Program-made: the position numbers and the translations under genes
Notes under the pieces: model-generated
What the model saw: only the letters and a program-made list of their open reading frames with translations
What the model was told of the DNA's origin: nothing
Database searches by the model: none
In this document: positions 17,073 through 45,602 of the stretch, in pieces
How the letters are laid out: every line of letters begins with the position of its first letter
How positions within the stretch are numbered: the stretch's first letter is position 1
Assembly: GCA_029778945.1 (NCBI GenBank)
Contig: JAKPBN010000440.1
Span: forward strand, 1-47,635
Source of the DNA: Spirochaetota bacterium
GTDB taxonomy: Bacteria; Spirochaetota; Spirochaetia; Treponematales; Rectinemataceae
Direction: 5' to 3'
Length of the DNA: 47,635 nucleotides

Positions 17073-17102
17073 TTGACCGCCTGAGGCGACAGAGACTAGG
17101 CT
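17073..17102 (+). promoter_or_regulatory. Promoter of the riboswitch-controlled cobT operon
   Basis: TTGACC (17073-17078), 18-nt spacer, TAGGCT (17097-17102). Predicted +1 near 17109-17110, immediately at the first base-paired strand of the riboswitch. Confidence 0.65.
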
Positions 17103-17109
17103 TTGCCCC

Positions 17110-17268
17110 GAGTACTGGCGCCGCGAGGCTTAATTGGGAAATCGGTGGAATGCCGATGCGCCCCCAGGCACTGTAAAAAGGCGATTTTACCCGTCCCACC
17201 ACTGCGGAAGCCCGCGGGAAGGCTGGGACATGATGGGGATGCCTTTGAGCCAGGAGACCTGCCGTACC
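17110..17268 (+). ncRNA. Cobalamin riboswitch (aptamer)
   Basis: Senses adenosylcobalamin or a related corrinoid and turns down the downstream salvage genes. The B12 box AGCCAGGAGACCTGCC is at 17248-17263. Other conserved segments are TTAATTGGGAA (17130-17140), GGTGGAATGCCGATGCG (from 17144), the CACTGTAA element (17170s) and CCACTGCGGAAG...GGGAAGGCTGGG. The closing stem P1 pairs GTAC-T-GGC (17112-17119) with GCC-GTAC (17261-17267). About 130 nt of expression platform follow, including a CCGGACC/GGTCCGG hairpin at 17275-17292, before the GTG of cobT. No T-tract follows that hairpin, so translation control is as likely as termination. Confidence 0.93.
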
Positions 17269-17400
17269 CGCTTTCCGGACCCTGGGTCCGGGATCACTGT
17301 TATTCACTGGGTGCTGAATAATGCCGGAAGCCCCCCACACGGTCCTCCCCATGTCTTCACGCCCCCCGTCCGTGCAGCCAGCCCGGGCAAGGAGCCTTCC

Positions 17401-41266: not shown

Positions 41267-41294
41267 TTGATTCTGTCCACCGAAGGAGTATACT
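41267..41294 (+). promoter_or_regulatory. Promoter of the non-coding RNA
   Basis: TTGATT (41267-41272), 16-nt spacer, TATACT (41289-41294). Predicted +1 is near 41301-41302. Confidence 0.65.
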
Positions 41295-41301
41295 TAAGAT
41301 A

Positions 41302-41624
41302 TCGAGGAGGACTTTAGGCAATCGCGGCAACCCACCCGTGGGTCCGCCTTCATGACTCTTCCGAATACGAGGAGGTCGAATGGATACTCCGCCTGAGGTT
41401 ACCTAGACGGCCCCGTTACCTGCAGCATACGGAGCCGCCCCTACAGAGAGTCCCTTTCCTTTCGGGACATTCAGGGATGGGTCGAGCCACTTAAGGCTCG
41501 AGATGCTTTAACCACAAGCATTCCTGCCTCCCCATGGGCTAAGCGCCGGGGAATTATGCAGGATAGTCATTGATACGGGGCCCGTCCTCCAGTGTATATA
41601 TGGGGACGGGCCCCGTCGTTTTTT
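41302..41624 (+). ncRNA. Structured RNA of unknown family, about 320 nt
   Basis: A promoter-to-terminator interval with no credible reading frame and a string of local hairpins: GCGG/CCGC plus ACCCA/TGGGT (41324-41347), CGGC-CCGT/ACGG-GCCG (41408-41437), GTCCC/GGGAC (41450-41468), TCGAGCC/GGCTCGA (41482-41501), TGCTT/AAGCA (41504-41520), CCTGC/GCAGG with inner CCCC/GGGG (41524-41562). It ends in the terminator at 41575-41624. I looked for signatures of tmRNA, RNase P RNA, SRP RNA, T-box and common riboswitches and found none. It may be a free-standing RNA or a long attenuated leader of the small gene at 41661, which starts 37 nt after the T-tract. Confidence 0.65.
41575..41624 (+). terminator. 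Strong intrinsic terminator of the non-coding RNA
   Basis: A perfect 13-bp stem, ACGGGGCCCGTCC (41575-41587) with GGACGGGCCCCGT (41604-41616), a 16-nt loop and six T at 41619-41624. Confidence 0.92.
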
Positions 41625-41660
41625 AAAGAACGGCCCCGGGCCAGCCGATAGGAATCATGT

Positions 41661-41975
41661 ATGATCGTAACCCTGTACAATACCGGCACGGATGGAACGA
41701 TGCTCTATTACACCATCCATGACCGCCAGGCCAGCCTTACCCAACCCTATACCCTCACAGTGGCCTGGAGCCGGGGCGGTGGCCGGGGCAGGGAAAAGTT
41801 CTATACCTTTGACAACCTCGAAGCCAAGGACAAGATGATCCGCAGCCTCCTTGCCCGGCGCTTTAAGTCCGGCTACCGCCTCCTCTACAGCTTTTCCCGG
41901 GACGCAGGCTGGAAGGATCCCGAGGCTAAAGCCAAGGCCCCCACCACGATCGGCCTCGTCCACAAGCAAGCCTAG
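41661..41975 (+). CDS. Small WGR-domain-like protein
   Basis: 104 residues. The pattern YTLTVAWSRGGGRGREKFYTFDNLEAKDKMIRSLLARRFKSGYRL has the spacing of a WGR domain (x-W-G-R-I-G ... F ... A ... F ... K ... GY), with WSRGG in place of WGRIG. WGR modules occur in PARPs, in MolR-like proteins and as stand-alone bacterial proteins, often linked to nucleic acid or poly-ADP-ribose biology; function here is open. The ATG at 41661 lacks a strong ribosome binding site (AGGAATC is the best). It lies just after the RNA terminator and ends at its own terminator. Confidence 0.68.
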   Translation: MIVTLYNTGTDGTMLYYTIHDRQASLTQPYTLTVAWSRGGGRGREKFYTFDNLEAKDKMIRSLLARRFKSGYRLLYSFSRDAGWKDPEAKAKAPTTIGLVHKQA

Positions 41976-44563: not shown

Positions 44564-44741
44564 GGGTAAGTGATCCAGTCCCACTCCTGTGGGAGGGGAC
44601 CACCGACCCTGGGCGGTCCTGAAACTCCGTGAAGGGACAGGAGCGATGTCCGCCCGAAGGCAACCGGCGCATGGCACCGGCAAGGAAGCCGCGGAGATCC
44701 GCCCGGCAGGCGGGTCCCCGATACGACGGAAGGAGCAAAGT
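44564..44741 (+). promoter_or_regulatory. Long structured 5' leader of flaB
   Basis: About 178 nt between the sigma-28 start site and the ATG. Predicted stems: TCCCAC/GTGGGA near 44578-44594, a nested GGGCGG-TCCTG ... CAGGA-CCGCCC stem (about 44613-44656), and CCGCC/GGCGG close to the ribosome binding site (about 44699-44713). Several GGA motifs, including those around the AAGGAG ribosome binding site, could bind CsrA, which controls flagellin translation in other bacteria. No standard c-di-GMP riboswitch motif was found. Confidence 0.6.
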
Positions 44742-45602
44742 ATGATCATCAATCACAATCTCAGCGCTATGTTCGCCAACAGGACCCTCGGGGCGACCAA
44801 CCTCGAGGTGGGCAAGGAGGTTGAGAAACTCTCCTCGGGCCAGCGGATCAACCGCGCGGGCGACGACGCTTCTGGCCTCGCCGTCTCCGAGAAAATGCGG
44901 TCCCAGATCCGTGGCCTCCAGAGGGCATCCAAGAATGCCCAGGACGGCATCTCCTTCATCCAGACCACCGAGGGCTACCTCCAGGAATCGCAGGACATTG
45001 TCCAGCGCCTCCGGGAGCTCGCAGTGCAGTCGGCCAACGGGATATACACTTCCGAAGACCGCATGCAGGTCCAGGTGGAGGTCAGCCAGCTTGTCGAGGA
45101 GATCGACAGGATAGCGAGCCACGCCCAGTTCAACGGACTCAATCTCCTCACCGGCCGCTTCGCCCGCGAGACCGGCGAGAACACCGCGACGGGTTCGATG
45201 TGGCTCCACATCGGATCCAACATGGATCAGCGCACCCGGATCTATATCGGGACGATGACCTCCAAGGCCCTCGCGGTGCGGAACTTTGGCGACAATTCCA
45301 TCATCTCCATCGCCAATCCCGATGACGCCAACCGCTCCATCGGGACCTTCGATGCCGCCCTCAAGCGGCTGTCCAAGCAGCGCGCCGATCTCGGAGCCTA
45401 CCAGAACAGGCTCGAGCACGCGGTCCGGGGCATCGACATCGGGGCGGAGAACATGCAGGCCGCAGAGAGCAGGATCCGCGACACCGACATGGCGTCGACC
45501 ATGGTGCAGTACACCAAGGACAAGATCCTCGCCCAGGCCGGCAATGCCCTCCTCGCCCAGGCGAACCAGTCTACCCAGCAAGTGATGCAGCTCCTCCAGT
45601 AG
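44742..45602 (+). CDS. flaB: Periplasmic flagellin FlaB
   Basis: Core filament protein of the spirochaete periplasmic flagellum, 286 residues, the usual FlaB length. The N-terminal domain [17 protein letters not shown], then the L-SSG-RIN block [27 protein letters not shown] and [10 protein letters not shown], is close to other spirochaete FlaB proteins. The C-terminal domain contains [31 protein letters not shown] and ends [14 protein letters not shown]. There is no variable D2/D3 insertion and no signal peptide, as expected. GGAAGGAG lies 7 nt before ATG 44742; the in-frame extension upstream is leader. Sigma-28 promoter upstream, terminator downstream, so it is monocistronic. Confidence 0.98.

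Follow-up and report, generated by a model that had tools for sequence, protein, structure and literature searches.

A predicted small RNA family with a conserved Pro-Pro micro-ORF in the spirochaete order that contains Treponema

Signals and structure at the locus

Between a divergent MGH1-like glycosidase gene and a small WGR-domain gene, the window (the whole stretch of DNA that was analysed, 47,635 nucleotides of a Spirochaetota genome) carries a promoter, a structured region and an intrinsic terminator, all on the + strand. These features are real. The sigma-70-type promoter (41267..41294) consists of TTGATT at 41267-41272, a 16-nt spacer and TATACT at 41289-41294. A scan of the + strand recovers it (2 promoter-like sites in the stretch versus 0.6 expected in shuffles), and many relatives have TTGATT/TTGACA/TTGCAT boxes 80-120 nt 5' of the micro-ORF described below. 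The terminator (41575..41624), seen in the sequence and by signal scan, has a perfect 13-bp stem, 41575-41587 with 41604-41616, and T6 at 41619-41624. The predicted transcript of about 320 nt (41301..41624, + strand) has blastn homologues in five relatives. Folding of 330 nt gives -140.2 kcal/mol versus -113.7 +/- 5.1 for shuffled sequences (z = -5.2; 0/100 shuffles as good). Promoter, terminator and structure thus stand as the preliminary description had them.

The same description stated that the RNA has no open reading frame, which does not hold. A canonical Shine-Dalgarno sequence, AGGAGG (41370..41375, + strand), precedes an 8-codon micro-ORF, ATGGATACTCCGCCTGAGGTTACCTAG (41380..41406, + strand), which encodes MDTPPEVT*. 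Its codons are ATG, GAT, ACT, CCG, CCT, GAG, GTT and ACC, with the stop codon TAG at 41404-41406. The frame lies below the 60-aa limit of the ORF list and is easy to overlook by eye; relatives keep both its position and its N-terminal sequence.

Several local structures surround the micro-ORF, some of them restricted to close relatives. TTAGGC (41314..41319, + strand) is predicted, from the fold and from close relatives, to pair with GCCTGA at 41391-41396 inside the micro-ORF. This TCAGGC/GCCTGA pairing is seen again in most close relatives and is lost in one genome (G002, loci L006/L036), hence it is not universal. The 5' hairpin CGGCAACCCACCCGTGGGTCCG (41325..41346, + strand) hardly varies among six copies from the window's own family, and is absent from L040, L042, L043, L045 and other families. 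Alignment and covariation define a 3' module, AGGGATGGGTCGAGCC-loop-GGCTCGA plus an ATGCTT/AAGCAT stem (41472..41521, + strand). Its stems pair 41482-41488 with 41495-41501 and 41503-41508 with 41516-41521, and its ATGCT..AGCAT hairpin is also found in copies from families f4 and f5. A candidate pseudoknot between ACCCAY of the 5' hairpin and GATGGGT of the 3' module was rejected: the two parts are complementary in six copies where both are near-invariant, and L042/L045 do not have the 5' part.

Downstream, outside the RNA, lies the WGR-domain gene (41661..41975, + strand; 104 aa), with a weak Pfam WGR match that is above cut-off (E = 8e-5). It starts 37 nt past the T run, the distance previously given. 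Just past the terminator is a putative sigma-28 (FliA)-like WGR promoter, TAAA-N16-GCCGATAG (41624..41651, + strand), which begins at the last T of the terminator. A flagellin gene (Flagellin_N + Flagellin_C) occupies 44589-45602, about 2.6 kb downstream of the WGR gene. The divergent glycosidase gene has a near-consensus promoter of its own, TTGACA-17-TATATT, at 41148-41120 on the - strand.

Relation to known RNAs and distribution

The RNA matches no known RNA family in Rfam. None of the 4227 families of Rfam 15 scores above its gathering score at the window RNA, permissive thresholds likewise give nothing, and copies from 11 relatives give no match above cut-off at E values up to 5. The earlier statement that the RNA belongs to no recognisable family is thereby borne out for Rfam, in the window RNA and in the 11 relatives. 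Rfam has a single match in the window, at 17098-17280, to a cobalamin riboswitch (87.8 bits).

A diverged housekeeping RNA (tmRNA, RNase P RNA or 6S), which the preliminary description had also considered, is extremely improbable. Size and structure would suit such an RNA, and 6S is not located: its Rfam model (RF00013) matches neither the window RNA nor any other place in nine of these genomes. tmRNA likewise is a structured RNA with a small internal reading frame. However, the window RNA has a Shine-Dalgarno sequence and no covariance-model match to tmRNA (RF00023), and the genome's own tmRNA lies elsewhere (G000:C365:21733-22086). RNase P RNA (RF00010) gives only an opposite-strand match of 7.7 bits (E = 5.5) versus a 100-bit cut-off, with the true gene at G000:C46:3534-3950. 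Both genes are also present in nine relatives. The Shine-Dalgarno-led ORF, the lack of any Rfam match, a 3' part that is not conserved across families, and the lack of a pattern match in most f3 and f5 genomes also argue against a housekeeping role.

Close relatives conserve the RNA. Among 59 genomes (the window's own and 58 relatives), blastn finds homologous DNA in five other genomes, each time 5' of WGR. The search of related spirochaetes that had been proposed as a check thus yields homologues, and the covariation proposed with it appears in the 3' stems. In the 3' module model (GGGATGGGTCGAG...CTCGAG; AATGCTTT...AAAGCATT), four pairs have changes on both sides, and 97.5% of cells are paired versus 93% in shuffles, from only eight related sequences. 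These apparent compensatory changes are supportive, not decisive. Across 395 genomes of the class, the 3' module model (R1) has strong matches only in the window's own family, f1; weaker matches have E values of about 4e-4 and worse.

Synteny with WGR extends the family further. A single WGR protein query has matches in 20 genomes, and a WGR profile then gives 33 loci, nearly all from spirochaetes and including Treponema and Spirochaetaceae metagenome-assembled genomes. At 15 loci (14 and the window), a Shine-Dalgarno-led ORF with Pro-Pro at codons 4-5 lies 5' of WGR (15/15). This subset was gathered by WGR homology and leader sequence was not used, although a Pro-Pro filter still served to call the ORF in loci outside the first alignment. 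The peptides are MDTPPERSQTIQGA, MDTPPESSGPA, MDAPPESSGRRFKAGAQLKR, MNNPPDSSGQSAGWLTE, MEAPPEGSGPGSDRS, MDNPPVFSEPATRRE, METPPESSRPASGS, MDNPPESSEPAPSGEYSLGGTGYDH, MVTPPEGSGSASTR, MDAPPFLCAPA, MDAPPLVRTPA, MDTPPVNYPPVPRDRRARVFV, MDTPPVVPSPARQGRRAQVLR, METPPVVHPPILRDRRARVLR and the window's own. In this subset, codon 4 is either CCG or CCC, and codon 5 is CCT, CCC or CCG. The other WGR-profile loci have WGR and no recognisable copy of the RNA upstream.

Copies also occur away from WGR. The pattern GGAGG-N3-10-ATGGANNCTCCNCC has 25 matches in 24 of the 294 genomes of the order, made up of WGR loci, chance matches and seven copies in f5 that are away from WGR. Context sets chance matches clearly apart: all fall within frames that run for at least 420 codons without a stop, and all but one lack a terminator. 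The seven f5 copies share the layout of the WGR loci (promoter, hairpins, Shine-Dalgarno sequence, micro-ORF, stem, terminator), and their micro-ORFs encode METPPKRK*, MDTPPEVA*, MDTPPEKSRLVRN* and MDTPPEMS*. A model of the f5 copies brings in divergent f5 members, namely MENPPEVAGPV*, MENPPDVIRPAL*, MENPPEEKGPAL*, MENPPEVTRPVS* and MGNPPEVSWPVR*, which have an ATGCT...AGCAT-type hairpin that resembles f1 and f4. In f3, an M[DE]xPP pattern has 16 matches in 195 genomes, from 7 of the 20 genera, versus 0 in a reversed control; examples are MDNPPEDARRRETGRR*, MENPPERKAPGRAV*, MDNPPEIHAPKGAKN* and MENPPETPCLLRGKYC*. The f3 and f5 copies are intergenic and followed by terminators. Genome G395 carries a pair of them at a distance of 3.5 kb (L163, L164), both with a MENPPE start and otherwise different in sequence; a duplication with divergence is possible.

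The prevalence is a lower bound, as the f3 and f5 searches used patterns that fix parts of the leader; most genomes of these two families have no pattern match. In the rest of the class outside the order there is no convincing copy, and the two pattern matches both lie in long frames without a terminator. In the part of the literature that was covered, no paper contains "MENPPE" and none was found that describes the RNA. From sequence comparison, we regard the RNA as a family without an earlier description, found across the spirochaete order that contains Treponema.

The micro-ORF is, by the same comparison, the most widely conserved part of the RNA. Our collection comprises 50 copies that represent four families of the order, 48 found by script and two (the window's and L038) added by hand. 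All 50 have a G-rich Shine-Dalgarno sequence 5' of the ATG, Pro4-Pro5, a hairpin that starts near nucleotide 24-27 of the ORF and a downstream terminator; the terminator positions given by script for L030, L031, L040, L105, L183 and L191 are probably internal hairpins and not the final terminator. The peptide mostly starts M-[D/E]-[N/T/A]-P-P-[E/D]. ATG is invariant (50), codon 2 is GAN in 47 and codon 6 is GAN in 39. Codon 3 is AAT, AAC, ACT, ACC or GCT; codon 4 is CCG 45 times, CCC 4 times and CCA once; and codon 5 is CCT in 29, CCC in 10, CCG in 10 and CCA in 1. Most of the sites that vary are wobble positions, in codons 2, 5 and 6. Pro-Pro is subject to ascertainment, since most f3 and f5 members were found by patterns that fix CCNCC; the WGR subset is the least biased. 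Past codon 6, the peptides differ in sequence and in length (8-29 residues), and in f4 Pro-Pro is followed by V, L or F. The 3' domain differs between families, and a common target site is not visible.

Neighbouring genes and transcription

The RNA is predicted to be an independent transcription unit, a view well supported by its promoter and terminator signals and by its unrelated neighbours. In f1 and f4, nearly every copy lies directly 5' of WGR on the same strand, and in the window's own family the RNA adjoins WGR in every copy. The f3 and f5 copies are not beside WGR, and often have convergent or unrelated downstream genes. Several (L103-L106, L110, L111, L170-L176) share a neighbourhood of a divergent gene that is PtsN-like by eye, a protein of 125-130 aa, the RNA and, often, a radical-SAM gene. 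The 125-130 aa protein has no significant Pfam family, and the radical-SAM gene has a TATACT-like -10 box before its start. Other f3 and f5 copies face a convergent gene that is RRM-, RNase Y- or TrkA-like, and further ones are followed by ychF-, radA- or apt-like genes (all by eye). Such constancy of the core beside changing neighbours is in keeping with an independent gene. The free RNA first described, with a promoter and terminator of its own, is supported; it lies outside Rfam and is conserved in related spirochaetes.

WGR genes have a promoter-like element of their own. A CGAT/CGAC core ([C/T]CGAT or CCGAC) lies just 5' of the start codon in about 30 of 34 WGR genes, and 17 of the 34 have T[ACT][AG]A sixteen bases before this core, whether the RNA is upstream or not. 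WGR is probably independent of the RNA's promoter, because this sigma-28-like box follows the terminator. Loci L029-L061 and the window have in common the motif T[ACT][AG]A-N16-[C/T]CGATA directly before the WGR start codon. We take this motif to resemble a sigma-28 promoter, going by FliA promoters; the likeness suggests that the small WGR protein may belong to the flagellar regulon.

Ribosome engagement and alternative readings

A hairpin stands at a similar place in the micro-ORF of each member. In the window it spans 41404..41443 (+ strand), with its 5' foot at nucleotide 25 of the micro-ORF, and overlaps the stop codon. With minimum-energy folding, the hairpin starts at nt 24-28 in 58% of members versus 23% of shuffles; by eye, most of the remaining members have the same hairpin with extra outer pairs. 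The mean energy is -18.4 kcal/mol versus -13.2 kcal/mol in shuffles. The stems are unrelated between groups (GCCTC/GAGGC, GCTCC/GGAGC, GCCGG/CCGGC, GACCGG/CCGGTC and others). A ribosome reaches about 15 nt from its P site to its leading edge, so that one with codon 4 or 5 in the P site would touch the hairpin.

Three other explanations of this region were rejected. A hairpin between the Shine-Dalgarno sequence and the ORF (GGAG/CTCC) was considered as the cause of conservation at codons 3-5; it is broken in L032, L040, L042, L043 and all MENPP copies, and the peptide holds. A frameshift signal would fit the hairpin spacing, yet no slippery heptamer is shared. A CsrA-binding RNA was suggested by AGGGATG in the window family, a motif that is not kept in other families.

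We propose a stand-alone, ribosome-engaged small RNA of the dual-function type, a reading in which our confidence is middling. The RNA would be transcribed from its own promoter and end at its own terminator, and ribosomes would load through the strong ribosome-binding site of the micro-ORF M[DE]xPP[ED].... While decoding Pro-Pro at codons 4-5, the ribosome would touch the foot of the hairpin that starts around nucleotide 24-27, and may slow or pause there. Its position could then decide the folding of the hairpin and the 3' domain, or the stability of the RNA, so that translation of the micro-ORF would govern how the RNA folds, how stable it is or how much peptide is made. The RNA would act in trans, either alone or together with the peptide. 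We infer transcription, translation, pausing and trans action; for translation, the Shine-Dalgarno sequence and the wobble-patterned conservation are observed in sequence comparison.

Dual-function small RNAs such as SgrS/SgrT, SR1/SR1P and RNAIII are small transcripts with an embedded short ORF led by a Shine-Dalgarno sequence. The window RNA resembles them in being stand-alone, with its own promoter and terminator, and no sequence relation to them was found in Rfam. Unlike them, it has an ORF of 8-29 codons of which only the first six are conserved, and a hairpin at an about constant place after Pro-Pro.

Pausing is the weakest step of the proposed mechanism. Ribosomes are known to pause at PPD and PPE in E. 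coli that lacks EF-P (PMC4140641), and a PPX motif 5' of a terminator alters termination (PMC5021804). In E. coli, a proline run preceded by N or T favours pausing only weakly, and CCG is read faster than the other proline codons (PMC8129111, PMC4176338). Strong arrest is doubtful, because codon 3 encodes N, T or A, codon 4 is CCG in 45 of the 50 copies, and f4 has V, L or F after Pro-Pro. The RNA resembles EF-P-dependent PPX pauses (PMC4140641, PMC4176338, PMC8129111) in having Pro-Pro-Glu/Asp placed to slow a ribosome, whereas those pauses occur in protein-coding genes and a weak pause is what the preceding residue and the codon would favour here. A narrower form, in which the RNA is an order-wide, trans-acting translation sensor of EF-P or prolyl-tRNA status and no cis leader, with the ribosome held at the N-terminal Pro-Pro against the hairpin, is fairly unlikely.

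The main rival is a short mRNA for a micropeptide, M[DE][NTA]PP[ED]..., whose RNA structure merely tunes expression and stability. The first six codons are the most conserved and follow codon wobble, and each copy has a good Shine-Dalgarno sequence, a short 5' region and a terminator, all as expected of such an mRNA. We nevertheless regard it as somewhat unlikely, given that the length ranges from 8 to 29 residues with everything variable past residue 6, that the hairpin stands at about equal distance in every copy, and that the micro-ORF takes up little of the structured RNA. A purely non-coding structured RNA with an accidental ORF would account for the strong folding and the covariation in the 3' stems; it is very unlikely, as four families retain the Shine-Dalgarno spacing, the ATG, the wobble pattern of the frame and Pro-Pro, whereas nearly all else in the RNA has changed.

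Ribosome-controlled transcription attenuation of the downstream WGR gene, akin to the long attenuator first considered, is unlikely as a general account and a minor possibility for f1 and f4. The near-constant position 5' of WGR in those two families favours it and, in the window's family, leaves room for a local role. The classical parts are also present, with a Shine-Dalgarno-led leader ORF upstream of a terminator and alternative pairings; inspection of the window by eye shows that GACGGCCCCGT, which follows the stop codon (about 41406-41417), can pair with the 5' arm of the terminator. Two other copies inspected in this way show no evident matching antiterminator, however, and the WGR promoter-like box follows the terminator and is present also where the RNA is absent. 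Many f3 and f5 copies have convergent or unrelated genes downstream. The proline-rich mgtL leader (PMC5021804) likewise combines a very short ORF that contains proline codons with alternative structures and a terminator, but it controls a downstream gene in cis, and many f3 and f5 copies have no co-directional gene that could depend on the RNA.

Little work has been done on small RNAs in the Treponema order. With 50 copies and an invariant Pro-Pro core, the proposed ribosome-engaged mechanism is open to test through mutation of two codons or one hairpin. If it is the ribosome that does the work, the RNA would be a counterpart to leader-peptide control that stands alone and acts in trans. Even if it is an ordinary micropeptide gene, it would be an unannotated one that is conserved in several spirochaete families. 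By its sigma-28-like promoter, the neighbouring WGR gene would belong to the motility regulon.
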